Source of the DNA: Anaerolineales bacterium
GTDB lineage: Bacteria; Chloroflexota; Anaerolineae; Anaerolineales; UBA11579
Direction of reading: 5' to 3'
Assembly: GCA_021463845.1 (NCBI GenBank)
Contig: JAJTXV010000002.1
Location: forward strand, 104,962 to 168,961
DNA: 64,000 nucleotides
Shown: in pieces, positions 17,474 to 59,557 of the stretch
Layout: every line of letters begins with the position of its first letter
How positions within the stretch are numbered: position 1 is the first letter of the stretch
The notes under the pieces: generated by a model
Database searches by the model: none
The model's input: the letters and a program-made list of their open reading frames with translations, nothing else
Told to the model about the DNA's origin: nothing
Position numbers and translations under genes: made by a program

Positions 17474-18658
17474 TTAGGCGAGGATTGCTTTTTGCAATTC
17501 TTCGCAGACCAGGCTGACCTGGTCTGCGGTCATGACGCTGGAGAACGGCAAGGCCAGGCTGCGGGCGCCGAGATCCTCAGTGATGGGGAAGTCACCCGGC
17601 TGGTAGCCGAAGCGCTGGCGCATGTATTTCTGCAGATGGATGGGGGCGAAGTATGGGCGCACGGGGATGCCAGCCTGGGCCAGGGTAGCGATGACACGCT
17701 GGCGGTCGATCTGCGGCGCCAGGCGCACGACATAGACGAACCAGCTCATGCGCGTGGTGGCTTGCAGGACCTGGGGAAGCTCGACCAGCTCAAAGTCCTG
17801 CAGCCGTTCTGCGTACCAGCCGGCTACCTGGGCACGGCTGGCCACCATCTCATCCAGGCGCTGCAGCTGTACGCGGCCGAGGGCCGCGCTCATCTCGGTG
17901 ATGCGATAGTTGTAGCCCAGGTGCGTGTGCTCGAGCCAGGTGTCGCCATCGGCTCGGCCCTGGTTGCGCAGGGCGCGCATCAGGGCGGCGGCCTCGTCAT
18001 CATCAGTGACGATGATGCCGCCCTCGCCAGTGGTCATTTGCTTATTGGGATAGAAGGCGAATACACCCGACTGGCCAAAGCGGCCGGCGGGAGTGCCTTT
18101 ATAGCTGGCGCCGAGCGCTTCACACGAGTCTTCGATAAGGGTCAGGGCGTATTCATCGGCGATGGGCTGGATGGCATCGTATTCGGCAGGCTGGCCGAAC
18201 ACGTCCACGGCCAGCACGGCTTTGGCGTGCTGCTGGCCGGCGGCAGCGCCGTGGCGCGGCAGCCAGCGGGCAGCCGCATCGCCGCCCTGGCGCAGGTCGT
18301 GGGCAGCCTGCTGCAGCAAAGCCGGGTCGATGTTGCCGGTGCGCGGGTCAATATCCACAAAGACCGGCACGGCGTTCTCGTACAGCAGGACGTTGGTGGA
18401 GGCTACGAAAGAGAACGGCGTCGTGAGCACCACATCGCCTGCGCCGATGCCGGCGGCGCACACACACAGGTGCAGACCGGCGGTGCCTGAGTTGACCGCA
18501 ATGGCGTGTCGGCTGCCTACATAGGCGGCCACTTCGGCTTCAAAGCCAGCAGTGTGCTCACCCATACTGAGCACGGGCGATTCCATCACCTGCATCACCG
18601 CAGCGCGTTCAGCCGCGGTGAGGTCCGGCGAGGACATGGGGACGCGAGGTTTATTCAT
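17474..18658 (-). CDS. DegT/DnrJ/EryC1/StrS family aminotransferase
   Basis: A 394-residue PLP enzyme of the sugar aminotransferase family. The segment LIEDSCEALGASYKG is the usual one before the PLP lysine, K206, in FYPNKQMTTGEGG. Such enzymes put an amino group on a keto-sugar nucleotide (for example 3- or 4-amino deoxy sugars). It lies about 20 kb away from the polysaccharide locus of this window and is not part of it, but could feed it. Its substrate cannot be told from sequence. Confidence 0.93.
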   Translation of the reverse strand: MNKPRVPMSSPDLTAAERAAVMQVMESPVLSMGEHTAGFEAEVAAYVGSRHAIAVNSGTAGLHLCVCAAGIGAGDVVLTTPFSFVASTNVLLYENAVPVFVDIDPRTGNIDPALLQQAAHDLRQGGDAAARWLPRHGAAAGQQHAKAVLAVDVFGQPAEYDAIQPIADEYALTLIEDSCEALGASYKGTPAGRFGQSGVFAFYPNKQMTTGEGGIIVTDDDEAAALMRALRNQGRADGDTWLEHTHLGYNYRITEMSAALGRVQLQRLDEMVASRAQVAGWYAERLQDFELVELPQVLQATTRMSWFVYVVRLAPQIDRQRVIATLAQAGIPVRPYFAPIHLQKYMRQRFGYQPGDFPITEDLGARSLALPFSSVMTADQVSLVCEELQKAILA

Positions 18659-43411: not shown

Positions 43412-44224
43412 CTAGAAGAGCGAATTATATTCAACCTTGGGGAAGACTGTGAGCTTGCCGCCGATGGTGGCGTCCAGCACGCGGCGGCCATCGGCTTCAT
43501 AGGCCTGGCGGGCCATGGCATAGGAGCGTTCGGAGGTTTCGAGGTCGGGTAGCTGCCAGCGGAAGCCGGCGCCGAAGTAACCCACGTTGAAGTGATCCTT
43601 ATCATCGCCCTGAGAGGTGACGGTGGTGTTGGGCGTACCCTGGGCACTAAAGTTGTGATCCACACCGATAAGGATGACGGTCTCGAAGCCCATGTAGTAG
43701 GCCAGCTGCAGGGCGACATAGGTCACTGTGGCCCCTTCCCACAAACGGCGGCGGGCATCGGTGGCGAAGGTTGGCCCGTCATAGGTGCTGTGCAGGAACA
43801 TGGTGCGCTGGTCTGGTTCAATAAAACGACGCGAGCGCCATGAGAGGAACTTGGGCATCTGCAGCGCCTGGATCTCAGGCACGGTCTGCTCGATGACCAA
43901 GTCGTTCACGCATACAAAATAGCTGGTGGCGAAGCCCCACTCCGGGAACGCCAGATACACGCGGTTCATGCCAAAGGTCAGCTCATTTTTGAGCTTGCTC
44001 ACATCGGTATTGCGCAGACTAGGCCCGTTGCCGAGGATGAAGGCGCGCTTGCCGCGCTGGCTGTCTTTGAGCGCGGCAAGCCGGGCAATACTCTGGCGAC
44101 GCCAGGGATGCAGAGTTGCGGCCGGCAAGGCGGCAGCGTGGCGCAACGCCAGCAGGCCGGCACTGCCCGCCTGCCACAGCGGCTGCGGGGTGAATTGCTT
44201 GATACGCTGTTTGAGAGAACTCAT
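43412..44224 (-). CDS. DUF115 / MptE-like protein, possible nonulosonate transferase
   Basis: A 270-residue protein with the GKRAFILGNGPSLRNTD loop and VILIGVDHNFSAQG block of the DUF115/MptE-like family. The family includes archaeal 6-hydroxymethylpterin diphosphokinase, but in bacterial glycan loci its relatives (for example Maf proteins) are linked with transfer of legionaminic or pseudaminic acid. The location here favours a sialyltransferase-like role. Start in an ATGA overlap with the SDR gene is on its downstream side. Confidence 0.85.
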   Translation of the reverse strand: MSSLKQRIKQFTPQPLWQAGSAGLLALRHAAALPAATLHPWRRQSIARLAALKDSQRGKRAFILGNGPSLRNTDVSKLKNELTFGMNRVYLAFPEWGFATSYFVCVNDLVIEQTVPEIQALQMPKFLSWRSRRFIEPDQRTMFLHSTYDGPTFATDARRRLWEGATVTYVALQLAYYMGFETVILIGVDHNFSAQGTPNTTVTSQGDDKDHFNVGYFGAGFRWQLPDLETSERSYAMARQAYEADGRRVLDATIGGKLTVFPKVEYNSLF

Positions 44225-44991: not shown

Positions 44992-45969
44992 TTAGCGGGC
45001 CGGATAGTCTGCCGGGTCTAAATCATCGGCGGGAATTCCAAGCCCGTCCAGCAGATTGCGGATGGTGTTCCAGTGCACACGTTCCCACGAGAATGGGCTG
45101 GCATTGGAATTGTGCGGGGCGAGGAGCACATTGTCCATCGTGCGCAGCGGGCTGTCGGCGGGCAGCGGCTCGTGCTCAAAGACGTCCAGCATGGCGCCGG
45201 CCAGCTTGCATGCCTGTAGGGCAGCGATCAAGGCTGGTTCGTCTACCAGCGGGCCGCGGGCGGTGTTGATGACTACTGCGTGCGGCTGGAGATGGGCAAG
45301 GGTCTGGGCATTGAGGATGTGATGGCTGGTGGGGTTGAGATCAGCGTTCAGGCTCACGAAGTCGGACTGCGAGAGCAGCTCTTCCAGCGAGACCATGTCT
45401 ACGCCTGTCTCGGCCAGGAAACTGTCCGGCACTTCGGCGGTGTCGTATCCCAGCAGGCGCATGCCAAAGCCGCGGGCGCGGCGGATGACGGCCTTACCGA
45501 TGCGGCCCACACCGATGACGCCCAGCGTGCACTCGAACAGCGAGCGACCGGGCAGCTTGCGCCACTCGCCGGCCTTGATGGCCTTGTCCAGCCAGGGGGT
45601 CTGGCGGGCAAAGCTGAGCACGCCAGCCATCACCGAATCGGCGACAGGGTCAGTGAAGGCATCCGGCGTGTTGCGGATCTGGATGCCAAGCTCGGCAGCC
45701 GCCACACGGTCCAGCGAGTCGATGCCCGTGCCCCATTTGGAGATCACCTTGAGGCGCGGAGCACAGGCGGCCAGCACCTCGGCGGTGTAGCGGTCATCGC
45801 CACACACCGCGCCGTCAAACTGGCCAGCATAGCGCAGGATGTCTTCGGCCTCCATGCGTTCTTCAACATCGGGAACGATGAGGGCCAGCCCATACTTGGC
45901 GAAAGCGGGACGGAAGCGCTCGACAGTGGGGAGCATATAAGGAGCGGAAAGCAAAATGGTCTTGGTCAT
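44992..45969 (-). CDS. D-2-hydroxyacid dehydrogenase (phosphoglycerate dehydrogenase-like)
   Basis: A 325-residue NAD-dependent enzyme. The Rossmann motif is GVIGVGRIGKAV (about 150-161); the catalytic Arg is in NTARGPLVDE, Glu in DVFEHEP and His in LLAPHNSNAS. It lacks the C-terminal ACT domain of SerA. In this locus it probably oxidises or reduces a sugar-derived acid, not serine precursors. Overlaps the cytidylyltransferase gene by 4 bases. Confidence 0.92.
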   Translation of the reverse strand: MTKTILLSAPYMLPTVERFRPAFAKYGLALIVPDVEERMEAEDILRYAGQFDGAVCGDDRYTAEVLAACAPRLKVISKWGTGIDSLDRVAAAELGIQIRNTPDAFTDPVADSVMAGVLSFARQTPWLDKAIKAGEWRKLPGRSLFECTLGVIGVGRIGKAVIRRARGFGMRLLGYDTAEVPDSFLAETGVDMVSLEELLSQSDFVSLNADLNPTSHHILNAQTLAHLQPHAVVINTARGPLVDEPALIAALQACKLAGAMLDVFEHEPLPADSPLRTMDNVLLAPHNSNASPFSWERVHWNTIRNLLDGLGIPADDLDPADYPAR

Positions 45970-46646
45970 GAGCTCTTCTGGCGCTGCTGCATCAAGAAAT
46001 CGGCGATCTTGAAATCCAACTCTTCGTCAATATCCCAGGCTTCGTTGCGCGGGATGGGGAACATGAGCGGCTTAGCACCGATACGGTGACCGTGCTCTGC
46101 AAGGCTGGCACGGTTAAATATGTAAATGCAGGAGTTTTCTTCGTAGATGGGCGGTAAGTCCTGAGTGCGCAACAATTCTTTGGGATCGTGGTTGACTGCC
46201 CTCCCCTCGGCATCGTAGAAGCGGGTTTGCAGGCCAGTGACACTGAACAACGAGTCGACATCCGGCAAAGCGTTCACAAAAACATCAATGGCTGCGTCGA
46301 TCGTCTGGCTGCGCAGCAGTGGATTGGTGCTGTGAGTCTGCAAGTAGTAGTCAGCTGGGATCTGGGCCGTGTCGTGCAACAGTATCTCGTTCATGGGCAC
46401 TTCGCCGGCGCGCAGGTGCTCTGGGCGCTCGATGACACGCACGGCGGGGAAATGCTCGGCCAGCCCGGCTTTGATGCTGGGGCTGTCGGTATCCACAGCG
46501 ATCTCGGCGATGCCGCGGCAGGATTGGAGGGCGCGCAAAATATGATGGAAGAGCGGCGCGCCAGCCAGTGTGCGGTAGTTCTTACCGGGCACACGCTCGG
46601 ACTGGTCTCGCATGGGGACGAGGGCAACGATGCGGGGTGTGGTCAT
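45966..46646 (-). CDS. acylneuraminate cytidylyltransferase family protein
   Basis: A 226-residue nucleotidyltransferase. The N-terminus ALVPMRDQSERVPGKNYRTL is a variant of the AxRxGSxxxPxKN loop, and the later YLQTHSTNPLLRSQTID and NEAWDIDEELDFKIAD fit the CMP-sugar synthetases. It would activate an acidic sugar with CTP. A second, fused synthetase lies at 54090, so two different acids may be activated, or one of the two has drifted. Confidence 0.9.
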   Translation of the reverse strand: MTTPRIVALVPMRDQSERVPGKNYRTLAGAPLFHHILRALQSCRGIAEIAVDTDSPSIKAGLAEHFPAVRVIERPEHLRAGEVPMNEILLHDTAQIPADYYLQTHSTNPLLRSQTIDAAIDVFVNALPDVDSLFSVTGLQTRFYDAEGRAVNHDPKELLRTQDLPPIYEENSCIYIFNRASLAEHGHRIGAKPLMFPIPRNEAWDIDEELDFKIADFLMQQRQKSS

Positions 46647-47627: not shown

Positions 47628-48959
47628 CTACTTGCGTAGGTGCGGGTCGGTGGGCTGAGGCGTGTCGCTCAGTGAAACCAGGCCCTTTTCAAGCAATAAG
47701 GCGATGACCTGCCAGACTTCTTGGAAACTGAGATGCAACTCATCAGCAATATCAGCTACGCGGCGAGTGCCATCGCAACGGTCCATAATCTCGAAACGGC
47801 GCTTGTGGCCAGCGGCGTCACTCTTGTAATCGACCCACAGTCCGTACCCGGAGGCGAAGACCTCGCCTTTGAAATGGTTGACCACATAGCGGTTGTGCTG
47901 GAACGCCTGAAGCAACTCCAACACCAGCTCAACCGACTGCTCCAGCCGGGCCTGCGAGACGATGGCGGGCGTATCCAGGCTGGAGTGATATTCAGGGTAT
48001 GGGGCAAAGCGCGAACCCGGCAAATGCGGGTTGACGACGCGGGAAAGCGAGAGCATGGGCACACGCACGCCGGGGGCGTTGAACTGGCGCTCGTCGTTAT
48101 CGATGACGGTGCGAAAGCCGCCCACATAGGCTGCGGGTTCGTGACCCGCCAGCGCATTCACCAGGGCGCGGTCAGGCGCGCTGAGTGGCTGGAAGGACTG
48201 CTGCAGCGCATGGGGCGCATCATTGCCCAGCATTTCAAGGAACAGGCCGCCGAGCATATTGGGAATCTCATGCTCGTGCTGGCTGAGATAAGCGATAGAG
48301 CCCTGCGTCTCAGGGAAGATGAGCAAGCGCACGCCGTAGTGCGGCTTCTCGCCGCCAGCAGCGTCGGCCAGCAGTCGGCGGGCCGCCTCAATACCAACCA
48401 CGACTCCAGTCAAGTCGTCGTTCACCATGGCGGGGTGATCGAGGTGGGCAGCGAGCACGAAATTCTCTGAGCGCTGGCCGGGAATGTACACCTCGCCGAT
48501 CTTTAGCGTGCCGGGCGTGAATTCGGAACGAATGACGACGCGGTAGCGCGCATCGGTGAGAGAATCGCGCAGAGTTTTGGAGGCACACAAGCCCCAGTCA
48601 CGCTGGTAATACTTGAAGACATAAGGAATGGCATCTGGCAGGCTAGCATGCACATGCAGGTGCGCCAGCAACTCCTCACGGCTGACCTCGCCCTCGAACG
48701 GCAGCGAGTAGGAGACTACATGCAAAGGATGGTCGGCGTAATCCAGCAGGCGGCGACCATCCAGGGTCTCGAGGTATGCCGCGTGGCAGGTCCACCTCTC
48801 GGGCACGGTCCAGCTCCACACCTTGGTGCCGCTGGGCACCTCATGGATGGTCATGGGCACTTCCTGCGCCAGGCGCAGCAGGGCGCGGTCGTAGTCATCC
48901 GAGACGAGATCGCGCTTGAGGAACCACAATTCCTGGATGAGCTGGAGCATGCTGGCCAT
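47628..48959 (-). CDS. DUF4910 aminopeptidase-like protein with winged helix
   Basis: A 443-residue protein with the three-part layout DUF2172/DUF4910 plus a C-terminal winged helix (about 375-430: DGTRRVADIADELHLSFQEV). The M28-like metal ligands are visible in LAAHLDHPAMVNDDLTG, PETQGS and EYHSSLDTP. Such proteins recur in surface-glycan loci; their substrate is unknown. It overlaps the AAC(3)-family gene by one base (TAATG). A role in removing or adding aminoacyl groups would suit its neighbours, but this is inference. Confidence 0.88.
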   Translation of the reverse strand: MASMLQLIQELWFLKRDLVSDDYDRALLRLAQEVPMTIHEVPSGTKVWSWTVPERWTCHAAYLETLDGRRLLDYADHPLHVVSYSLPFEGEVSREELLAHLHVHASLPDAIPYVFKYYQRDWGLCASKTLRDSLTDARYRVVIRSEFTPGTLKIGEVYIPGQRSENFVLAAHLDHPAMVNDDLTGVVVGIEAARRLLADAAGGEKPHYGVRLLIFPETQGSIAYLSQHEHEIPNMLGGLFLEMLGNDAPHALQQSFQPLSAPDRALVNALAGHEPAAYVGGFRTVIDNDERQFNAPGVRVPMLSLSRVVNPHLPGSRFAPYPEYHSSLDTPAIVSQARLEQSVELVLELLQAFQHNRYVVNHFKGEVFASGYGLWVDYKSDAAGHKRRFEIMDRCDGTRRVADIADELHLSFQEVWQVIALLLEKGLVSLSDTPQPTDPHLRK

Positions 48960-49732
48960 TAGTGAGCCACCTCCGGGCGGTTGCTGACCAGGGCCCATGG
49001 GTCCAACTTCAGCAAGGCATCCGTAGCGGTGACGAAGTCCTGCAAACGACAGACAGCGATGTGGCCGTGGTTGAGCGGCACACTGCGCCAATCGGCCGAG
49101 GCCTCCAAGGCAGCCTGGATAGGCGCCAGGCGCAATTGTGGGTTGATGTCCATATCACGCACGAACATACGATAGCTGCGCGGCTGCCATTCCCCGCCGA
49201 TATTCACCTGGCCGGCAAAATCCTTCCAATAGCGATACGGCACAGCGGCGCGCTGCTCGCTGTAGTGCACCATCGACGCCGCCTGGATATCGGCGCCCAG
49301 CAACAGAAGCTTGAAATCCGCCTGCAGCATGCGGTCAAACGCGGAGCCATCGTCAAACGCAGACGGGGTATCGCACGCCGCCAGCGCCTCGGCCGCCGCG
49401 CCCAGGGCAGCTACCGACTGCATGGGGTGCAAGGTGCGGCGGGCGGCGGGCTGCTGGCGGACGAACTCAGAGAACACGCCCATGCCCTGCGAGGGCGTGG
49501 TGGCCGGGTCATATTCTCCCGTTTTGGCGAACTCAAACGAGAAGGCCGGCACGACCAGCGTGCCGTGCGCACCAATCAGAGATTGAAGCGAATCAAGATA
49601 TAAGGCCAGCCCACCTTCAGGCTTACCAAGGAACTGCACGGCGGAGTGCACCAGCAAACCATCGCCTGCTTGCACACCAAGGGACTGCAAGGCGCCATCC
49701 AGTTGCAGACGAGTGAGAGCCGCCAACGCCAT
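48959..49732 (-). CDS. AAC(3)-family N-acyltransferase
   Basis: A 257-residue protein of the aminoglycoside 3-N-acetyltransferase fold: LLVHSAVQFLG near 27-37, GTLVVPAFSFEFAKTGEYDP, LHPMQSVAALG with the catalytic His, and LLLLGADIQAASMVHYSEQ. In glycan loci such proteins acylate sugar amines. Because the enzyme binds a pantetheine arm, an acyl- or aminoacyl-carrier protein is a possible donor. The ATG at 49732 overlaps the GNAT stop. It is unlikely to be a drug-resistance gene. Confidence 0.88.
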   Translation of the reverse strand: MALAALTRLQLDGALQSLGVQAGDGLLVHSAVQFLGKPEGGLALYLDSLQSLIGAHGTLVVPAFSFEFAKTGEYDPATTPSQGMGVFSEFVRQQPAARRTLHPMQSVAALGAAAEALAACDTPSAFDDGSAFDRMLQADFKLLLLGADIQAASMVHYSEQRAAVPYRYWKDFAGQVNIGGEWQPRSYRMFVRDMDINPQLRLAPIQAALEASADWRSVPLNHGHIAVCRLQDFVTATDALLKLDPWALVSNRPEVAH

Positions 49733-50199
49733 CACAGCACCTTGCGCACCAGGGTCAGATCCGTAGCAAAGCCGTGCTTGTGCCAAAAATCCAGCCCGCC
49801 ATCGTTGCCAGCCTGCACCTGCACTTCCACAGAGTGCACAGCCAGCTCAGCGAACTTTTGCATAGCCGCCTGCACCAGCTGGCCGGCAAGGCCGCTGCCG
49901 CGCACCGACTCGTTTACATAAAGGTCACTGATCTCGCCGATCTGCTGGCCCCCGAGGTGAGCGGGGCTTTGCTTGACGCGCGCCATCAGGAAGCCGACCA
50001 CGGCCCCATCCTGTTCGGCCAGCCACAGAAAACTAAAACGCCCCAGCGTACGCTGAAAGCTCTCAGCCCACAACTGTGGCGCGTTGTCTACATGGGGGAA
50101 AGCCAGGCCAAGACTGCGATGGTACGCATCCAATTGCTGCCACAGGGCGGCGGCCGCGGGCAGATCCTCAACACTCGCCTGGCGGATGGTTACCCCCAT
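49732..50199 (-). CDS. GNAT family N-acyltransferase
   Basis: A 155-residue GNAT with VGFLMARVKQ (beta 4), ISDLYVNESVRGSGLAGQLVQAA (acyl-carrier binding loop) and FWHKHGF near the end. The ATG at 50199 overlaps the end of the carrier-protein ligase gene by 10 bases. It may use acetyl-CoA or the neighbouring carrier protein; the acceptor is unknown. Confidence 0.88.
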   Translation of the reverse strand: MGVTIRQASVEDLPAAAALWQQLDAYHRSLGLAFPHVDNAPQLWAESFQRTLGRFSFLWLAEQDGAVVGFLMARVKQSPAHLGGQQIGEISDLYVNESVRGSGLAGQLVQAAMQKFAELAVHSVEVQVQAGNDGGLDFWHKHGFATDLTLVRKVL

Positions 50200-51371
50200 T
50201 GGCGCGCCTCGCGCATGATCGCAGGCCACTGGGCCGGGTCAAGGCCGTACTGGGCCAAGAAGGCGTAGGCCATGCGCTCCAGCCCAAAGGCGACACAGCC
50301 AGTGTGCGCCGGTTTGCCGTCCGGCAGCGTGATCTTGAGATGGCGGCCGAAGAAATCCTGATGATAGTTGTACGAACCTACAGCCAGCGTGCTGTCCTTG
50401 AAGGGCAGGCGGGCGCGGATCTCATATTTAAGCTGGAAGGCGTTCTGGAAGGCGGCCTGCTTGCGGAACTCGCCGACGAAGAAGGGATCATTGGCACTCT
50501 CCACCATGTAGGCCATGCCGAGCTCTTGCAGCCAGGGCGTCACCTTTTTGCGGGCGGCCTCGCGATTGTCGAGCACATAATCTGCTGAGCCAACGAAGAT
50601 GACTTCGCGCATAGTGAAATCCCACAGGCGTTCCAGACTGTTGAGGTTGCTGGACTCATAGCGGAAGCAGTGGCCGACTGCGGTAGCAGCCAACTGGCCG
50701 CCGGGCAGCGGCTTGTCGGCCAGGCCGAAGTACAGGTGGTAGCACACCGCAGGCGAGAGCAGCGCCTGGATCTTGGAGAACGACTCGAGCGAGGCGCTGA
50801 GGCCAGAGGGTTCGTATACGGCGTTCTCGGCAAAATCACTGATGATGTGCAGGTCTTCACGCAGGTGAGTGGCAAAGGTCAGCGAGTGCGGGAAGGCACG
50901 GAAGTAATTCACGCGGCCCAGCATCTCGGCCGAGATCAGGGTCGGAAAACGCTGCGGCTTGGCGCCAAATTCAGCGGCCAGCTCCAGAAAATAGTCTTCA
51001 AACACGCCGATCAGGTTGGCGAGCAGCGGGCCAAAGCTGTAGACGCCATTGGTCTCCTGGTGGACCTCACCGCGCTGCTCCAGCTCGGGCATGGGGTCGG
51101 CGGCATAAGGGACCGCGCGCTGCAAGTGATCCTCGAGCACTTCGACTTTGGGCTTGGAGGCGCCGGTGGCCATGTCTTGCACAACGCTCTGGACCTTGGC
51201 TTCCAGGTCAGGCGAGGCGGGGGCGCGCAGCTGCAAGTCAATGCGGCTGCCATCCGCGGCGATGCTGGCCGAGGCGATGGCCTCGTCAACATAGGCCAGC
51301 TTGGCCTGCACCTGGCCAACTAGATGGGCGGGGATGGGAATGCTGGGCGTGATGGAGAGTTGCTCAGCCAT
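50190..51371 (-). CDS. amino acid:[carrier protein] ligase, SerRS-like
   Basis: A 393-residue class II synthetase-like protein. Motif 2 is HCFRYES (234-240) and motif 3 GLERMAYA (363-370). Putative zinc ligands are C210, E256 and C359; these spacings (46 and 103) nearly match the C131/E176/C279 triad that I recall for the Bradyrhizobium aa:CP ligase. It has no tRNA-binding arm. The family activates glycine or alanine and loads it on the phosphopantetheine of a carrier protein, here surely the product of the gene it overlaps by 8 bases. An N-terminal extension of about 80 residues is extra. Confidence 0.88.
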   Translation of the reverse strand: MAEQLSITPSIPIPAHLVGQVQAKLAYVDEAIASASIAADGSRIDLQLRAPASPDLEAKVQSVVQDMATGASKPKVEVLEDHLQRAVPYAADPMPELEQRGEVHQETNGVYSFGPLLANLIGVFEDYFLELAAEFGAKPQRFPTLISAEMLGRVNYFRAFPHSLTFATHLREDLHIISDFAENAVYEPSGLSASLESFSKIQALLSPAVCYHLYFGLADKPLPGGQLAATAVGHCFRYESSNLNSLERLWDFTMREVIFVGSADYVLDNREAARKKVTPWLQELGMAYMVESANDPFFVGEFRKQAAFQNAFQLKYEIRARLPFKDSTLAVGSYNYHQDFFGRHLKITLPDGKPAHTGCVAFGLERMAYAFLAQYGLDPAQWPAIMREARQWG

Positions 51372-51603
51372 GCTTGCTCTGAATATGGGCCAGGATGGCC
51401 GGCACGCTAATGAGGGCACTAATGGTTTCGGCGGTAATTTCAATGCCAAAGGCAGTTTCAAGCCCGACCATGAGATCCATATGCCCCATTGAATCCCAAG
51501 CAGGTAACTCGCCAAATTGCAGATCGGGAGTGATCTCTTCGGGCGCAAGTTTAAAAACATCCGCAAATACGGATTGAAGTTTTGAGAAATTTGCGTCTTG
51601 CAT
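51364..51603 (-). CDS. acyl carrier protein
   Basis: A 79-residue carrier protein: FADVFKLAPEEITPDLQFGE, then DSMGHMDL with S38 as the site of phosphopantetheine, then the acidic helix LETAFGIEI. It is not the fatty-acid AcpP (no DSLDTVE box). It directly precedes the ligase that should charge it. A phosphopantetheinyl transferase is not in the window. Confidence 0.93.
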   Translation of the reverse strand: MQDANFSKLQSVFADVFKLAPEEITPDLQFGELPAWDSMGHMDLMVGLETAFGIEITAETISALISVPAILAHIQSKHG

Positions 51604-51610
51604 GTCTGTC

Positions 51611-53188
51611 TTATACCAGAAAGGGTTTGTGCTCCACCACACCGTCTCGCACGGCTTTGATGGCGGGTGAATGCTCAGCCCGCAACGCGCTGATGGGAAA
51701 TTCCTGCAGGTTCACATAGCCCATACTGGTGGGCTGCAGATAACGCTCAAAGGGAAGACTGGTTTTGAATAGCTGAAAGTACAGTACGCGGCGCGCCTCG
51801 CGCACAAAGGCGTCTGGCTGCGGCACCTGGGCAGCAGCCAGGAAGCTGTTCGCGAGCTGCTTGTACTCAGCCTGGCTGGCGGGGAAGTACAGGGTCGGGT
51901 ACTGCGTATAGCGGGCCGCCCCGGCGCACAAGGCAGGCTTGCCCATGATGGAGGCTTCCAGCCCGATCGAGGAGTTGTACAGCATGACGAAGTGGGCTTT
52001 TTCGATCAGCGCGTACGAGTCGACAAATTCGGTGGGCGGGATGAAGATCACGTTGGGCAACACCTGCAGCCCGCGGGCAGCCACCCACTCGGCCACGCTC
52101 TGGCGGCTCTGCTTCGTGGAGCCGGGGCGCATCTCGTCTGGATGGGCACGAATGACGAAGAGGGTGCGCGGGTTGGCACGGATGAGTTCTTCTACGTAGG
52201 CGAGCCAGGCGAACATATCCTCGAACAGCACATTGGCATGCACCTGGCTGGTGTCAAAGATCACGTTGGTGAAGGCCGGCACCAGTTTGTCAAACTTAGC
52301 AACTTTGGCGAGAAAGTCAGCGTCCAGCGCCTGGATATCGCGCCAGAAACGAATACCCGCCATGCTAAAGTCGCCCTTGAAGCGGCGGCTTAGGTACGCG
52401 TCGAGTTGTTGGTTCTCGGCATCGCCAAGCTGGAAATCCGCGGGAATATCCATCGGGTAGGCGGTGGCTTCGCCATCGGTGAAGAAGGCGGTCATGGGCT
52501 GTAAGCCGACCTCGTGGGTGATGACGCGCAGGCCGCGGCGTAGGGCGATCTGGCGTGCGACTGCCTCAGGGAACATGATTCCGTTGAATACCACCACGGC
52601 CTGAAGGTCTTTGCCTTCAATGAAGGCGGCAAACTCACGCGCCACGTTGCTGGCGGAGAGGATGTATTCGCGCAGCAATGTGCGCGTGGTTTCATCGTCG
52701 ACAAGATCATGGCGGCGCATGGCCCAGCGCAGCGAGGGCAGCACCAGTTGCCCGAGCGGCAGGCCGCCGTGTTCGACAGCGAGCAATTCTTCGAGGGCCA
52801 GAGGTTGTACGCGGGCGGCCAGCTCCGCATCCGGTTGATACGCAAACCAGTGAGCATCGGCGCCGGCGTACATGCGTCGTGATTGCGCCACGCAGGCTGC
52901 ACAGGGCGGCGTCTGCCCGGCGTCATCGGGGTTGGTACCCAGCACGCAGCGGCTCATGCCAGCGTTGCACACGAAGTGCAGGATGGGTACGCCCTCGAGG
53001 CGCAGCCCCCACGAAGCCAAGAGCGCAAAGGCAGCATTCTGACTGAGATGACCAAGGCGCGTAGATGCATTGAAGAAGACGACCGGCCTGTGCGCGGCGT
53101 GCTCCGCCGCGGCGACGGCGCGGGCAGTACGCGCCAAGCGCACTCGGCTGTTTAGCGTGTGGAGCTTGTTGACTATTCGCTTGAGCAC
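51611..53188 (-). CDS. capsule-biosynthesis-like GT-B glycosyltransferase
   Basis: A protein of about 525 residues with the KpsS/KpsC-like layout: an N-terminal domain with FFNASTRLGHLSQN and GADAHWFAYQPD, and a C-terminal one with RTLFVIRAHPDEMRPGS and MLYNSSIGLEASIMGKPALC. The HPDE and SSIGLEA blocks bind the donor in Kdo or CDP-linked transferases. Cysteines CxxC near 105 (PPCAAC) may bind zinc. The start is uncertain: GTG at 53188, or TTG at 53215; neither has a good ribosome binding site. Confidence 0.85.
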   Translation of the reverse strand: MLKRIVNKLHTLNSRVRLARTARAVAAAEHAAHRPVVFFNASTRLGHLSQNAAFALLASWGLRLEGVPILHFVCNAGMSRCVLGTNPDDAGQTPPCAACVAQSRRMYAGADAHWFAYQPDAELAARVQPLALEELLAVEHGGLPLGQLVLPSLRWAMRRHDLVDDETTRTLLREYILSASNVAREFAAFIEGKDLQAVVVFNGIMFPEAVARQIALRRGLRVITHEVGLQPMTAFFTDGEATAYPMDIPADFQLGDAENQQLDAYLSRRFKGDFSMAGIRFWRDIQALDADFLAKVAKFDKLVPAFTNVIFDTSQVHANVLFEDMFAWLAYVEELIRANPRTLFVIRAHPDEMRPGSTKQSRQSVAEWVAARGLQVLPNVIFIPPTEFVDSYALIEKAHFVMLYNSSIGLEASIMGKPALCAGAARYTQYPTLYFPASQAEYKQLANSFLAAAQVPQPDAFVREARRVLYFQLFKTSLPFERYLQPTSMGYVNLQEFPISALRAEHSPAIKAVRDGVVEHKPFLV

Positions 53189-53220
53189 AATGAACCCAGC
53201 CGCCCGCGGCGGCAAAAAGA

Positions 53221-54093
53221 CTACTTGGCGCGGCGCAGCTTCTCCATGGAAGGACGCTCGCTGTCATAGACGCGCTTGACGCCGTCACCCAGCGCCTGCT
53301 CGGTGACACGGATGTACTTCACCAGCTTCTGCATGCCGCCCGGCTCCACCGAGGCAGCCTGGTCGCTGCCCCACATGGCGCGGTCAAGCGTGAAGTGGCG
53401 CTCGATAAAGCAGGAGCCCATGGCAACCGCGACGGCGGAGAGCACCAGGCCGACTTCATGGCCCGAGTAACCCACTGGGCAGGGGAACTTCTCGCGCAGG
53501 GTTTGGATCATGCGCAGATTGAGCTCTTCCGGCTCGCAGGGGTAAGTGCTGGTGGTGTGAGTCAGCATGGTGTTGCCCATGTCTACATGCTTGATGGCTT
53601 CGTCGATCTGCTCCATGGTGGACATGCCGGTGGAAAGCACCACCGGGCGGCCAGTCTTGCGCACATGGTCCAGCAAGGCATGGTCAGTCAGCGAAGCCGA
53701 GGGAATCTTGTAGCAAGGGGTGTCAAACTTCTCCATGAAGTCCACGGCGGGCTCATCCCATACAGAGACGAACCAATCCAGCCCCTTGGTTTTGCAGTGG
53801 GCGTCAATCTCGGCGTATTCTTTCTGGCCGAACTCGACCTTGTTGCGGTAGTCCATGTAGCTGATGTAGCCCCACGGAGTTTCGCGCATCTTATCGCGCT
53901 GGTCAGGCGGAACGGCAAGCTCCGGCGTGCGCTTTTGGAACTTAATGGCGTCTGCCCCGGCCCAGGCAGCCAGATCGATCAGCTGCTTGGCAATCTCCAG
54001 GCTTCCATTGTGGTTGATGCCAATCTCCCCTACGATGTAGACCGGGTGGCCATCCCCCACCATGCGGTTGCCTAGCTTTAATTCTCGAGTCAT
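53221..54093 (-). CDS. NeuB-family nonulosonate synthase without SAF domain
   Basis: A 290-residue barrel that should condense an N-acyl sugar with phosphoenolpyruvate. VGEIGINHNGSLEIAKQLID, AIKFQKR, KIPSASLTDHALL and GYSGHEVGLVLS are the family blocks; ERHFTLDRAMWGSDQAAS is the metal/PEP site. The C-terminal antifreeze-like (SAF) domain of about 60 residues, which closes the site in normal NeuB dimers, is missing. A full NeuB with SAF lies at the right edge. It may act on a different substrate. Confidence 0.9.
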   Translation of the reverse strand: MTRELKLGNRMVGDGHPVYIVGEIGINHNGSLEIAKQLIDLAAWAGADAIKFQKRTPELAVPPDQRDKMRETPWGYISYMDYRNKVEFGQKEYAEIDAHCKTKGLDWFVSVWDEPAVDFMEKFDTPCYKIPSASLTDHALLDHVRKTGRPVVLSTGMSTMEQIDEAIKHVDMGNTMLTHTTSTYPCEPEELNLRMIQTLREKFPCPVGYSGHEVGLVLSAVAVAMGSCFIERHFTLDRAMWGSDQAASVEPGGMQKLVKYIRVTEQALGDGVKRVYDSERPSMEKLRRAK

Positions 54094-55331
54094 TCGTTCA
54101 TCCTTTGGGCGTTTATCGCCATGATTAAATCACAAAGCTCGCGCACTGCGCCATGCCCACCGCGTTGAGTGAGACGCTGGTCGGCCTGGCGCAGCACGGC
54201 CGGGTGCGAATCAGCCACGGCCACGGCACAGCCAGCGATGGGGAAGCACGGCAGATCATTGGTGTCATTACCGAGGAACACTGTGTGCTCGGCAGGAATA
54301 TTGAGTTCAGCGAGCAACTGGCGCAGCGCTTCACCTTTTTCGTTGATGCCCTGGCGATAGCCGATCTTTAGCTTTTCGCAGCGGCGAGCTACTACCGGGT
54401 TCTCTTCGCGCGAGAGCACGAACACCTGCACGCCACTTTCTTTTAGTTTGCCGATGCCCAGGCTGTCGCTGCGGTTGGCCGCGATCGATTCCTTGCCGTT
54501 CTCATCAACCCAGACGCGGTTGTCGCTCAGCACGCCGTCAAAATCCAGCACGAGCAGCTTGACCTGCCGGGGGTAGGGGCGCGTTTGCGCGCCGGGCCAC
54601 ACGGCATCCAGCTCGCCCGAGGTGGCCAGCCACTCGCCACGCTGCCAGTCATTCATGGTGTCAATATCCACGCTGTAGCGCGGGTCAACCATGACTGGCA
54701 AGATGACATCGCCGCTCATGGAGTGCTTTTTGAGGATGACCGAGCTGCGAATGGCATCAATGTGCCCGGTCTGCCAGTAGGTGGCGGGGAGTTTTTGACG
54801 CGGAGCGTTATAAGGTTCAGTGACGCCTTTGGCCTTGAGTAAGGGTTGCATCACGCCGTCCGGGCCGATGCGCCACATCTTGTGGGGATTTTGGCCGCTG
54901 GGCACCACGCCACGGGCGGAGTCGGCTTTGGGATTCTTGAGCAGCAACTGCACAGCCTCATCCACAAGACCACGCGGGCGCAGGGGGGATGTGGGGCGCA
55001 ACTGGACCACAATGTCAGGCTTATAGCTTTCGTTCCTGGCAAGCCACTGCAGGGCGTGCTCAAAGACAGGCAGGTCAAGGGTATTGTCTTGCGCAAACTC
55101 GGCGGGGCGGATGAACGGCGCCTCGGCGCCGAGATTGCGGGCGACCGCGGCCATGTCTTCATCGTCGGTCGAGATGATCGTGCGCGTCACGGTATCGGCC
55201 TGCAAGGCGGCGGCGATGCTGAACGCCAGCAGCGGATGGCCCGCGAACAAGCGCACATTCTTGCGCGGGATGCTCTTGGAGCCGCCGCGAGCGGGAATGA
55301 TGGCAAGGACCTGGGGCTTCTTAGACGCCAT
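54090..55331 (-). CDS. CMP-acylneuraminate synthetase fused to KdsC-type phosphatase
   Basis: A 413-residue fusion. The N-terminal half (1-235) is a CMP-sugar synthetase (IIPARGGSKSIPRKNVRLFAG, VQLRPTSPLRPRGLVDEA). The C-terminal half (about 255-413) is a HAD phosphatase with DFDGVLSDNRVW (D263 and D265 nucleophile pair) and FLGNDTNDLPCF. The HAD part would remove phosphate from the 9-phosphate made by a NeuB, and the other half charge the acid with CMP. The ATG at 55331 is chosen over a GTG three codons earlier. Overlaps the NeuB gene by 4 bases. Confidence 0.93.
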   Translation of the reverse strand: MASKKPQVLAIIPARGGSKSIPRKNVRLFAGHPLLAFSIAAALQADTVTRTIISTDDEDMAAVARNLGAEAPFIRPAEFAQDNTLDLPVFEHALQWLARNESYKPDIVVQLRPTSPLRPRGLVDEAVQLLLKNPKADSARGVVPSGQNPHKMWRIGPDGVMQPLLKAKGVTEPYNAPRQKLPATYWQTGHIDAIRSSVILKKHSMSGDVILPVMVDPRYSVDIDTMNDWQRGEWLATSGELDAVWPGAQTRPYPRQVKLLVLDFDGVLSDNRVWVDENGKESIAANRSDSLGIGKLKESGVQVFVLSREENPVVARRCEKLKIGYRQGINEKGEALRQLLAELNIPAEHTVFLGNDTNDLPCFPIAGCAVAVADSHPAVLRQADQRLTQRGGHGAVRELCDLIMAINAQRMNE

Positions 55332-55333
55332 GG

Positions 55334-56149
55334 TTACCACGCGGTCCAGCCGCCATCCACAACCAGGTTGGCGCCGGTCATATAGCTCGATGCATCGGAG
55401 GCGAGGAACAGCAGTGCACCGTTCATTTCATCTTGCTCGGCCATGCGCCCCATGGCGGCACGCGCCGAGTAGGCTTTGACGAACTCTTCATCTTGCGTAT
55501 TGCGCACACCACCGGGGGTAAGCGCATTGACGCGGATATTCTGCGTGCCGTAATAGGTGGCCAGGTACTTGGTGAGGCCGAGGATGCCCGCCTTGGTGAC
55601 GGTGTAATCCACCGGCTTGAATGAAGGCGGCTTGCCCTCGCGCTGGTAAATGCGCTGGTCCGGCCCTCCGAGGCCATAGGTTGAGCAAATATTGATGATG
55701 GCGCCGCGGCCCTGCGAGAGCATGTGCGGCACGACTGCCTGGCTGAACAGGAAGGCTCCGGTCAGATTCACGGACAGCGAATTGTTCCAATTCTCCAGGC
55801 TGTATTCTTCAAAAGAAGAGTTGTGCTTGCCAGCCTCGCCGGCGTCAAACTTGGGGTCAAGCGCGGCGCTGTTGACCAGAATGTCGAGGCGACAAAATTT
55901 ATCTAGAGTCGTTTGGACGGCGGCCTGCACGGCGGCCTTGTCGCTCACATTGCATTGCACGGCCAGCGCCCGTTCGCCCAACTCAGCCTGCAACGCAGCG
56001 AGTGCAGCCGGATTGAGATCCACCAGCGCCACTGAGGCGCCGGCCTGCACTAGCGTGCGGCAGAACTGCTTGCCCAGCAAACCAGCCGCCCCGGTAACCA
56101 GGGCGACGCGGCCAGTGAGATCGAATGCAGATTGGATGGTGGTGGGCAT
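55334..56149 (-). CDS. SDR family oxidoreductase
   Basis: A 271-residue short-chain dehydrogenase: TGAAGLLGKQFCRTL binds the cofactor, NSAALDPKFD follows, and Ser, Tyr and Lys are in NICSTYGL and DYTVTKAGIL. Between Ser and Tyr there is an insertion of about 17 residues (QRIYQREGKPPSFKP) compared with the usual 12-residue spacing. The family member in legionaminic or related loci (PtmA-like) has the same insertion. Two bases precede the stop of the next gene. Confidence 0.92.
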   Translation of the reverse strand: MPTTIQSAFDLTGRVALVTGAAGLLGKQFCRTLVQAGASVALVDLNPAALAALQAELGERALAVQCNVSDKAAVQAAVQTTLDKFCRLDILVNSAALDPKFDAGEAGKHNSSFEEYSLENWNNSLSVNLTGAFLFSQAVVPHMLSQGRGAIINICSTYGLGGPDQRIYQREGKPPSFKPVDYTVTKAGILGLTKYLATYYGTQNIRVNALTPGGVRNTQDEEFVKAYSARAAMGRMAEQDEMNGALLFLASDASSYMTGANLVVDGGWTAW

Positions 56150-56214: not shown

Positions 56215-57207
56215 TCATGGCCGCCCCAGCTCCACCCGGGCGCCCTGTTCGTGGGCGCGGTGGGCCGCCAGGGCAATCTCCAAAGCGCGAGTGCCATCCT
56301 GCAAGGTGCAGAGCGGCTGCGCAATGCCGTGCGCGACCTCTAAAAAGTGGCGCGTCTGTTCAATAAACAGGTGATTGCGTTCGAAACCCGTATCAGGTGC
56401 AAATTCACGCTGCTCACCACTGGCGGATGTGTGCACCAGAGTGCCGCTGGCAGCGTTCCATTCCAGGCGGCCTTGGCTACAGACTATCTGCACAGTGTGG
56501 CTGGGTGGCTGCTGGACATAATCCAAGTACACGCTGCCCACAGCGCCGCTGGCAAACTGCAAGCCCACTTCGGCCTGGTCTTCTACAGCGATCTCCAGCT
56601 CGCCGCTGTGGGTCAATGTGGCCCATACGGAATCCACTTCACCAAGCAGCCAGCGCAAGTAATCGAAGGGGTGGCACAAGGTGAGCACCACCCCACCACC
56701 CAAATCGGCGCGGGCGCTGTAGCCCTTACGATAGTCCTCGTACGGGTGCCAGTTGGGCAGGTACTCGCCCCAATGAGCGCGTGCCGAAAGGGGGCGGCCC
56801 AGCTGGCCAGACTGAAGAATCTCGGCTGCCTTTTGCAACGTGGGGTGAAAGCGCCACTGGAAGCCGACCAGGATACGGCTGCCGCCGGATGCGGCGGCCT
56901 GGCGCAGCTCGTCCACGCGGGCCAGGCTGTGGCTGATGGGCTTTTCCATCAGCAGGCTGCAGCCCTGGGCGGCGGCAGGGATGGCCACATCCATATGCAG
57001 GGCGGTGGGATTGGAGATCACCACTGCGTCCGGCTTGTGGGCCAACGCAGCCTCAATGCTGTGCTCGACGGGGTATTCGGCCAACTCGCTAACATCCAGC
57101 GTGCTTTTGTTGCTGCGCAGGAACACAAAATCCTTCACGCTGAGGGCGCGCAAATTATTGAAGTGGCGTTTACCGATCGAGCCGTAGCCAGCGATGAGAA
57201 TTTTCAT
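56215..57207 (-). CDS. Gfo/Idh/MocA family oxidoreductase
   Basis: A 330-residue NAD(P)-dependent sugar dehydrogenase. ILIAGYGSIGKRHFNN is the Rossmann loop, MEKPISHSL contains the catalytic EKP, and the C-terminal domain has GGVVLTLCHPFDYLRW with the active His. In nonulosonate loci such proteins act on the amino-sugar precursor. ATG at 57207 is in an ATGA overlap with the sulfotransferase gene. Confidence 0.93.
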   Translation of the reverse strand: MKILIAGYGSIGKRHFNNLRALSVKDFVFLRSNKSTLDVSELAEYPVEHSIEAALAHKPDAVVISNPTALHMDVAIPAAAQGCSLLMEKPISHSLARVDELRQAAASGGSRILVGFQWRFHPTLQKAAEILQSGQLGRPLSARAHWGEYLPNWHPYEDYRKGYSARADLGGGVVLTLCHPFDYLRWLLGEVDSVWATLTHSGELEIAVEDQAEVGLQFASGAVGSVYLDYVQQPPSHTVQIVCSQGRLEWNAASGTLVHTSASGEQREFAPDTGFERNHLFIEQTRHFLEVAHGIAQPLCTLQDGTRALEIALAAHRAHEQGARVELGRP

Positions 57208-58115
57208 TCCCAATCGACTCCCACTTCATAGCCCCACTTGAGCAAAGCCTTATCCGCGTTCTCTTTGAAGATGTTCTTGTCGCTAGGCGTAAAGAATTGA
57301 CGCCAGACGGCTTGTGGACTCTTATCGAGCACAAGCTCTTCGTCCTGAGCGATCTCGGCAGCCACTTTCGCCTCAAGACCATCAGCCTCCAACCGGAGAA
57401 AGGCCCAGACCTTAGCCAGCATGTCAAAGGGGCGCGCCAGCAAGTCCTCATAGCGCAGCGAAAAATAACTCTCCCCATAAAGCTGGTGACCCAGACGATC
57501 TGTTTCGCTGACGCCGGTGGTCCACTGGCGAGTTGCCTCAGAAAGCCAGCCGGGGGCGAAGATGGCCACGTTGTCTGCAGGGCGAGTGCGCTCGCGGCGG
57601 GTACTGGCGGCTGCACCGCCAGTGAGTTCTTGCAAGCGCTGCTTGACGAGGACGTCACGCCCATCCCGCACAATATGGATCAGACTGGCATCCGGATAGA
57701 GGTGGTGCATCTCTTGTACGGCGCGGCCGCCAAGCTCATTCTGGCTTTGGTCACCCGCCACAGTTTTGCCCAGCGGATGCGCCTGGCGCTCCAACAGAAA
57801 ATCAGCCATGACGCGCAAAGCGGCCGCCGAAGGCGCGGCAGCCGGCTCCTCAGGCTGGGCGAACAACTCGGTAAGCACAGGAATACGGGTGAAGAAATGC
57901 GCTCCGGTGCCGCAATACAGATCAGGATGTACGTTGAGCACCCGCGCCAACACGCCGCCCCCGGAGTGTGGTTGCCCGATCACAAAGAATTTCTGCAGAG
58001 GAAAGAATTCTTTGACCTCGGCCAGCTCCGCAGCTGACAGAGGCGGCAATGCATGACTGGCGGCGCTTTCGTCGCCGGTGATGGCGCGCAAGGCTTTGCG
58101 CAAGGGCGAACTCAT
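57204..58115 (-). CDS. sulfotransferase family protein
   Basis: A 303-residue PAPS-dependent sulfotransferase-like enzyme. The 5'-phosphosulfate loop is FFVIGQPHSGGGVLARVLNVHP (in parts), and the 3'-phosphate site is LIHIVRDGRDVLVKQ. The end, LLKWGYEV, is usual. It may sulfate the glycan. The ATG at 58115 overlaps the stop of the gene before (ATGA); a longer frame is not GT- or ST-like. Confidence 0.85.
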   Translation of the reverse strand: MSSPLRKALRAITGDESAASHALPPLSAAELAEVKEFFPLQKFFVIGQPHSGGGVLARVLNVHPDLYCGTGAHFFTRIPVLTELFAQPEEPAAAPSAAALRVMADFLLERQAHPLGKTVAGDQSQNELGGRAVQEMHHLYPDASLIHIVRDGRDVLVKQRLQELTGGAAASTRRERTRPADNVAIFAPGWLSEATRQWTTGVSETDRLGHQLYGESYFSLRYEDLLARPFDMLAKVWAFLRLEADGLEAKVAAEIAQDEELVLDKSPQAVWRQFFTPSDKNIFKENADKALLKWGYEVGVDWE

Positions 58116-59557
58116 GCGCTGGCTCCTGCACGCTGGCCAAGACGAGAAAGCAAGTAGGCGCCTGTGCGCTGGCCGGCGCTGGCATCGGTAAATGTGCACT
58201 CGCGGGCAATGAAAGCGGCGCGCTCGGCTTCGTCGGCGCCGGGAGTATTGAGATAGAAGTTGAGCGCATCGCGCAGTTGATGGATGTCATAAGCTACGCG
58301 GCCAGCCGACGAATTACGGAAGCGCGAATGGGTGGGCCAGTCACCGATGCGCGAAAGTGGCAGGGTGAACTTGCCCGGCCAGCCCACGGGCGAATCAATG
58401 CAGGCGCTCACCACGGGGGTCTTGTGGGCCGAGGCCTCGACCACCATGGTGGAGTAGACGGTAACGAACACATCCGAATGGGCCATCATGGACGATTTCT
58501 CGTGCATATCTTCCCCTGAATAATGGCCCAGCGAGCCGCCCAGCGCAACCGGCTCCACCACGTGAACATGCGGATACTTCTGAGCCAGCTGGAAGATGGC
58601 TTCACGCTCCTGAGCGAAGCGCGGCACATCCATGAAGTGATTGGGGTGCAAACGCACGAGTAGCTGGCTGGGTTCAGCCAACTGGTCACCCGAGACCAGC
58701 TCAGCCAACGCTTCGATATCCTGAATATTGGGCGAGAAGGTGATGAAGCTGCTGGCAAAGGAGATCAGCTTGCGCTGCGGGTCCAGCCCGTGCGCTTTGA
58801 AATACTCCGCCCGCGGCAGCACCCACTCCTGCTTGAAGTAGCCGTCGTAGGACGGGATGCCGCCGATGTGGACGCGGGCAGGGTCCCAGTCAGAGCCATT
58901 GACCAGTTCCTGTTTTTGAATTTCAGACCAGCAGGTGATGTAGTCAACCGGCGCACCGGGCAGGCTATAGCTGCTGGAGTTATCCCAACCCACGATGACC
59001 GCCGCGGTGGGGATGTTGTGAGCAGCGGCTTCACGCAGCAGGTAACGGTCGTAGCGCCAGCCCGGCGTGCTGGCGACCACCAGGCTGGGCCGGTACTTGG
59101 CGAACAGGTCGGCATAGATATCCGGGGTGAAGCGCTGTTGCAAGCCGTGCAGCCAGCGGCGAGCGGCGCGGCTGCGGCGCAGGATGGCGACAAAGAATTC
59201 CATGAAAGGGAACAGCAACTTGCGGCGGGCGTGGGCCTCAGCTTTTACCTGGTTGATATAGCTATCCACCGCTTCAAGATTGATATGGTTGGAGGCGCCA
59301 GCGCGGCGCAAGAAATCCAGCCACCACTGCGCGCCGTAGGAGTGCGAGTGGAAGTATTGCTTGGCCTGCTTGAGGCGCAGACCTTCGATGATCAGACCCG
59401 GTTGGGCAAAGCGTTCACGGATGCGCTCAACGATCTCGTCATCTGTGAGTACAACGACTTCGGCGCCGTCGTCAAGCAGGGTGCGCAAAACATCACTCTG
59501 CAGGAAATAAACGATGGCTAGGCCGTGATCGGCGCTGATAAAGATACGCGGCTTCAT
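58112..59557 (-). CDS. CDP-glycerol/capsule-type GT-B transferase
   Basis: A 481-residue protein with a GT-B layout. The C-terminal domain contains LLVRLHPNHFMDVPRF, the block VEPVALGG and SDVFVTVYSTMVVEASAHKTP, as in CDP-glycerol glycerophosphotransferases and related capsule enzymes. The N-terminal part has VVASTPGWRYDRYLLREA and VIVGWDNSSSY. Donor unknown; a CMP- or CDP-linked sugar is likely given the locus. Confidence 0.85.
   Translation of the reverse strand: MKPRIFISADHGLAIVYFLQSDVLRTLLDDGAEVVVLTDDEIVERIRERFAQPGLIIEGLRLKQAKQYFHSHSYGAQWWLDFLRRAGASNHINLEAVDSYINQVKAEAHARRKLLFPFMEFFVAILRRSRAARRWLHGLQQRFTPDIYADLFAKYRPSLVVASTPGWRYDRYLLREAAAHNIPTAAVIVGWDNSSSYSLPGAPVDYITCWSEIQKQELVNGSDWDPARVHIGGIPSYDGYFKQEWVLPRAEYFKAHGLDPQRKLISFASSFITFSPNIQDIEALAELVSGDQLAEPSQLLVRLHPNHFMDVPRFAQEREAIFQLAQKYPHVHVVEPVALGGSLGHYSGEDMHEKSSMMAHSDVFVTVYSTMVVEASAHKTPVVSACIDSPVGWPGKFTLPLSRIGDWPTHSRFRNSSAGRVAYDIHQLRDALNFYLNTPGADEAERAAFIARECTFTDASAGQRTGAYLLSRLGQRAGASA

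Follow-up and report, generated by a model that had tools for sequence, protein, structure and literature searches.

Amino acid:carrier-protein ligases, which load glycine or alanine onto carrier proteins, were first described in 2010, and a 2022 review still calls their role unknown (PMC9437257). Here we analyse a five-gene module from a 64-kb stretch of the genome of an uncultured Anaerolineales bacterium of the Chloroflexota (contig JAJTXV010000002.1; the whole stretch is called the window below), in which an aminoacyl-tRNA synthetase (aaRS)-like ligase stands with an acyl carrier protein (ACP), a GNAT N-acetyltransferase, an AAC(3)-family acyltransferase and a DUF4910 protein. Acting together, the ligase, its own carrier and an acyltransferase are likely to decorate a surface sugar with an amino acid.

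In butirosin biosynthesis, an amino acid is loaded on an ACP and then passed to an amino sugar (BtrI/BtrJ/BtrH); the loader is an ATP-grasp enzyme and the product an antibiotic rather than a surface glycan. The CA_C2195 locus of C. acetobutylicum brings together DUF4910, ACP, N-acetyltransferase, NeuB, MAF/DUF115 and aminoacyl ligase genes, from which Das et al. suggested transacylation to an amino sugar; there, unlike in the window, the ligase is of the ATP-grasp type (PMC4000134). In C. jejuni, Cj1295, a DUF4910-family protein whose gene neighbours that of an N-acetyltransferase within a nonulosonate locus, is needed for pseudaminate bearing a non-acetyl acyl group at N5, and its authors proposed that the N5 acetyl group is removed; the group added is di-O-methylglyceroyl, and no aaRS-like ligase is reported (PMC3068675). 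Amino acids themselves have been seen on surface sugars: PMC5207245 reports glycine and N-acetylglutamine on pseudaminate and glycine-acylated Fuc3N, and cites the flagella of A. caviae and C. jejuni for amino acids on pseudaminate. The C. difficile type B flagellin peptidylamido-glycan described there resembles our proposal in that glycine acylates an amino sugar of a surface glycan, but the acceptor is Fuc3N. Our literature searches returned no paper combining aminoacyl groups, ACP and nonulosonic acid, and no clear ACP pathway for O-antigen Qui3N/Qui4N. An earlier note on this DNA stated that no such pathway had been described, which is too strong in view of the published nonulosonate loci with ACP, N-acetyltransferase and DUF4910 genes, the flagellar glycans with amino acids and the Cj1295-dependent N5-acyl pseudaminate. 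Sugar and flagellin aminoacylation and Cj1295 are thus precedents for part of the chemistry, and systems of this sort are known in part; what appears to be new is the aaRS-type loader in glycan loci.

All five genes lie on the minus strand. They run from the ACP (51364..51603; 79 aa; PF00550 1.6e-7, above cut-off) through the aaRS-like amino acid:carrier-protein ligase (50190..51371; 393 aa; class II aaRS core, similarity to PRK07080 and PRK00960), the GNAT N-acetyltransferase (49732..50199, with an ATG start; PF00583 7.9e-17) and the AAC(3)/FrbF-family acyltransferase (48959..49732; Antibiotic_NAT, PF02522 1.8e-39) to the DUF4910/DUF2172 M28-like protein (47628..48959; PF16254 1.3e-59). Successive open reading frames (ORFs) overlap by 8, 10, 1 and 1 bases, an order and overlap that agree with the earlier note, and Pfam and NCBIfam concur on each family. 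The carrier scores 31.9 bits for the PP-binding domain against a Pfam cut-off of 20.8, and its phosphopantetheine serine, Ser38, sits in a DSx motif; the DSMGHM sequence pointed out before is present, as WDSMGHM, and the form WDS[ML]-H is found again in about 40 relatives. The window's 2.33-Mb genome has one copy of the ligase, and no tRNA gene was found in the 64-kb window.

The module is real, conserved and functionally coherent. Among ligase-bearing Anaerolineales loci whose contig extends far enough to judge each partner, the ACP is present in 39 of 40, AAC(3) in 40 of 40, DUF4910 in 35 of 36 and the GNAT in 38 of 43, and NeuB, CMP-sugar synthetases, glycosyltransferases and an MptE-like gene surround the module. 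The earlier note would have been refuted by the absence of the set from other genomes, and this recurrence answers that objection; DUF4910, which the note placed just after the other four, is part of the module and no bystander. The closest relatives of the window are Anaerolineales metagenome-assembled genomes, and the ligase occurs in 29 of 151 sampled Anaerolineales genomes, including eight of nine from the window's own genus. In some relatives a tandem pair of GNAT genes separates the ligase from AAC(3) (L007 11173-12180; L041 11164-12173). Chance adjacency of the five genes was ruled out, because the set recurs on about 40 independent Anaerolineales contigs.

Compared by sequence with proteins of solved structure, the ligase is closest to Bll0957 of Bradyrhizobium, itself an amino acid:carrier-protein ligase (3mey, 3.9e-41). 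In a fold search with the whole AlphaFold model (pLDDT 85), it superposes on 4h2s with Z 29.2 and 2.6 Å over 270 residues; the matches barely cover an N-terminal extension of about 90 aa, which precedes the class II core and which Bll0957-type proteins lack. Common to both are the class II core, the zinc C/E/C triad and a neighbouring ACP gene. The triad, C210, E256 and C359, is intact, as first noted from the window alone, and shows no variation across 44 aligned homologues. Annotated Bll0957-type operons read ACP–acyl-CoA dehydrogenase–ligase–DUF1839–GH2, unlike the window locus with its N-terminally extended ligase, acyltransferase and glycan setting. In a ligase tree that left out Bll0957 itself, the window ligase falls in a clade (98/94) distinct from the ligases encoded in operons with ACP and acyl-CoA dehydrogenase genes. 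It scores 169.5 bits against PRK07080, the NCBIfam equivalog for amino acid:carrier-protein ligases, below the 357-bit cut-off; for this score and its extension it is classed, by sequence, as a sister subfamily of the Bll0957-type ligases, outside that equivalog. A Bll0957-type ligase is itself found in a Chloroflexota genome (G022; L080 7302-12919), in an acyl-CoA dehydrogenase–ligase–DUF1839–GH2 operon that matches the one on Rhizobium and Azospirillum plasmids.

The ligase and its carrier come and go together. In three Anaerolineaceae genomes (G005, G018 and G046), adjacent DUF4910 and AAC(3) genes lie in a related nonulosonate block; no ligase match was found in these genomes, and their loci were searched for an ACP and a GNAT homologue and gave neither. 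Because these loci keep the pair without ligase or ACP, the two appear to have been gained or lost jointly against a constant DUF4910–AAC(3) background. The same pair is also found on alphaproteobacterial plasmids, in nonulosonate or flagellin-modification loci, where it can be joined to another kind of loader. In Maritalea and Sinorhizobium RAC02, an AAC(3)–FkbH fusion is followed by an SDR with an ACP domain and by DUF4910, and in Maritalea by NeuB as well, so that AAC(3), ACP and DUF4910 are adjacent as in the window; the loader is FkbH (domain matches of 1e-83 to 1e-86), not an aaRS-like enzyme, and FkbH proteins have been described as makers of glyceryl-ACP (PMC7489565). A third arrangement has no detected carrier: the Agrobacterium locus reads pseBCFGIH–AAC(3)–DUF4910, with no ACP found in it, and the Tritonibacter locus reads DUF4910–AAC(3)–FlmD in the 2 kb examined around the pair. 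The AAC(3) tree resolves the corresponding lineages, with supports of 100/100 for the ligase-linked Anaerolineales, 100/98 for the FkbH-fused enzymes and 99/97 for those with no ACP found, and the ligase-free Anaerolineaceae join the alphaproteobacterial pairs, not their own order. On a Rahnella plasmid (L110 5890-8403), an AAC(3)–FkbH-type fusion accompanies MaoC, SDR, ATP-grasp and CDP-alcohol phosphatidyltransferase genes; this is a different pathway built on the same type of fusion.

The ligase clade extends across Chloroflexota, Pseudomonadota, Acidobacteriota, Planctomycetota, Gemmatimonadota and Myxococcota. In several glycan-like loci of the other phyla, its neighbours are an ACP together with either a hexapeptide acyltransferase or a GNAT, and flippases also accompany it. 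Whether the whole clade supplies aminoacyl-ACP for surface-sugar aminoacylation through interchangeable acyltransferases (AAC(3), hexapeptide, GNAT) we regard as an even bet. In a Planctomycetota and an Acidobacteriota locus (L049 11752-13521; L052 10867-12708), FkbH-domain proteins adjoin the aaRS-like ligase and ACP, giving two ACP loaders per locus.

We read the module as an aminoacyl-donor unit, ligase and ACP, plugged into an AAC(3)/DUF4910 sugar-acylation pair, and give this reading a probability of about 0.6. What we observe is the gene content, the intact catalytic residues, the linkage, the ligase and its ACP being absent together, and AAC(3) lineages that sort by type of donor; the individual chemical steps, the amino acid and the acceptor are inferred. 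The ligase would form an aminoacyl-adenylate and load the amino acid, presumably glycine or alanine given the precedent of its family, on the pantetheine arm that the ACP carries at Ser38. DUF4910 would expose or hold an amino group of the sugar, probably on a nonulosonate, as proposed for Cj1295, and the AAC(3)/FrbF-type enzyme would move the aminoacyl group from the ACP to that amine. The GNAT may then acetylate the new alpha-amine, and the sugar would be activated with CMP before it enters the surface glycan. The central proposal of the earlier note, that an aaRS-like ligase provides aminoacyl-ACP for surface-glycan decoration, is supported by family, structure and context.

That note left the transfer to one of the two N-acyltransferases, and the choice can now be narrowed. 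The AAC(3)-like protein scores 136 bits for PF02522 (gathering score 25), matches FrbF (3sma) at 1.4e-19 and has H157 and E160 conserved in its homologue alignment; it reaches 100.1 bits for the AAC_3 resistance equivalog of NCBIfam, below the 270-bit cut-off, and in the tree the module enzymes stand apart from the aminoglycoside-resistance row. It is likelier to be the aminoacyltransferase than the GNAT, because it is present in all 40 loci, its lineages largely track the donor type and it is fused to FkbH elsewhere, whereas 5 of 43 ligase loci lack the GNAT. The GNAT might instead move the aminoacyl group, with AAC(3) and DUF4910 carrying out a separate acetyl-CoA-dependent acylation: its gene directly follows that of the ligase, and the ligase-free Anaerolineaceae loci, where no GNAT homologue was found, retain AAC(3)–DUF4910 without an ACP. 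We consider this unlikely, although it fares best among the alternatives, since it must accommodate the ligase loci that lack a GNAT, the fusion of AAC(3) to an ACP loader and the fold of the GNAT itself, whose model (pLDDT 96) resembles RimI, polyamine and AAC-type GNATs, the best matches being users of acetyl-CoA that act on small amines or N-terminal alanine. The GNAT may modify the aminoacyl amine or the sugar.

The genes around the module bear on the acceptor and on a further alternative. NeuB and PseF-like genes flank the module. Next upstream of the ACP, and like all genes listed here on the minus strand, is a Capsule_synth/BFO_1060-type glycosyltransferase (51611..53215; PF05159 2.8e-5), syntenic in relatives, followed by a NeuB-type nonulosonate synthase without a SAF domain (53221..54093; PF03102 6e-78) and a PseF-like CMP-sugar synthetase fused to a KdsC-like phosphatase (54090..55340; domain matches). 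Downstream are a second PseF-like CMP-sugar synthetase (45966..46646; PF02348 2.4e-28, TIGR03584 2e-18) and an MptE-like protein (43412..44224; PF01973 5.2e-11) whose domain is also that of Maf-type transferases. NeuB, CMP-sugar synthetase, DUF4910 and acyltransferase, the set for acyl decoration of nonulosonates, thus occur together, and the likeliest acceptor is a nonulosonate, another amino sugar being less probable. The aminoacyl-ACP might also be used in making a peptide or natural product, as happens in nonribosomal peptide synthetase (NRPS) and polyketide synthase (PKS) systems, with the glycan block a mere location; related Streptomyces ligases do lie in PKS/NRPS-like contexts, and locus L046 has a neighbouring ORF of 2813 aa. 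This is improbable: the place inside the glycan block is conserved across the order, in other phyla acyltransferases and flippases keep company with the ligase clade, and the annotated part of the window has no NRPS or PKS genes.

The glycan is probably sulfated, because sulfotransferases lie in the block (57204-58199) and relatives have tandem sulfotransferases together with an ATP-sulfurylase/APS-kinase fusion (L005 13742-15459; L009 1610-3397); the loci of relatives also carry methyltransferases. In place of the window's short NeuB, many relatives have a 645-aa protein that joins NeuB-SAF to a xylose-isomerase-like TIM barrel (L009 5120-7057).

The DUF4910 protein scores 201.5 bits for Pfam DUF4910 and 98.2 bits for a DUF2172 insert and matches 3k9t at 1.4e-53. 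H174, D180, E216, D288 and H324 are kept in at least 95% of 33 alignment rows and, judged from this conservation, could bind metal; the authors of the CA_C2195 study judged the peptidase site of their DUF4910 protein not conserved (PMC4000134). We propose that it acts as an N-deacylase or as a co-factor of acyl exchange. It could alternatively remove the aminoacyl or acyl group again, that group being a temporary protecting group as in butirosin biosynthesis, where BtrJ/BtrI/BtrH act before BtrG. An M28-like protein with conserved candidate metal ligands, encoded directly after AAC(3), would suit such a role, but Cj1295 is required for the presence of the acyl group, not for its loss (PMC3068675), and we think this somewhat less probable still than a natural-product step. 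A DUF4910 protein 51% identical to the window's is encoded on a Solidesulfovibrio plasmid (L100 9962-11272), beside NeuB and several radical SAM genes.

It is very improbable that the ligase acts on tRNA, as a divergent form of seryl-tRNA synthetase (SerRS): archaeal SerRSs equal 4h2s in structural Z (29.7–30.8, with larger root-mean-square deviation) and the ligase has an N-terminal extension, but Bll0957 is far closer by sequence (type-2 SerRS, 1.1e-23) and superposes at 2.6 Å, the cut-offs of the type-2 SerRS equivalogs are missed (PRK00960, 130.6 of 611 bits; TIGR00415, 89.6 of 489.55 bits), and an ACP is adjacent in 39 of 40 loci.

Four observations weigh against a donor unit plugged into the AAC(3)/DUF4910 pair. 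The ligase falls short of the equivalog for its proposed activity and carries an extension absent from Bll0957. The AAC(3)s of L044 and L049 sit on long branches and do not join the main ligase-linked clade; L044, from Pseudomonadota, has the gene order AAC(3)–ACP–ligase–formyltransferase, and a search of its phylum and family for further AAC(3)-linked ligases gave only G442 itself, with one weaker ligase match in G743. Some DUF4910 loci have a PIG-L deacetylase and no detected AAC(3) or ACP, so the role of DUF4910 may not be deacylation. Finally, no aminotransferase is among the module's immediate neighbours; DegT aminotransferases are encoded at 17495-18622 in the window and, on the same contig, about 19.6 kb past its end; a Polysacc_synt_2 dehydratase lies 1.4 kb past the end.

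The locus and its relatives give the ligase family a concrete, testable role, the supply of aminoacyl groups for surface glycans, and for this ligase subfamily the likely role is new. They also sharpen a general rule, that AAC(3)/DUF4910 systems for nonulosonate acylation swap their loader (FkbH, ATP-grasp or aaRS-like) to alter the decoration, and they suggest that an AAC(3) gene in a locus of this kind probably encodes an enzyme of sugar acylation rather than of resistance. If the role holds for the whole clade, it would be the first biological role of this kind of enzyme and would tie translation enzymes to glycan chemistry.

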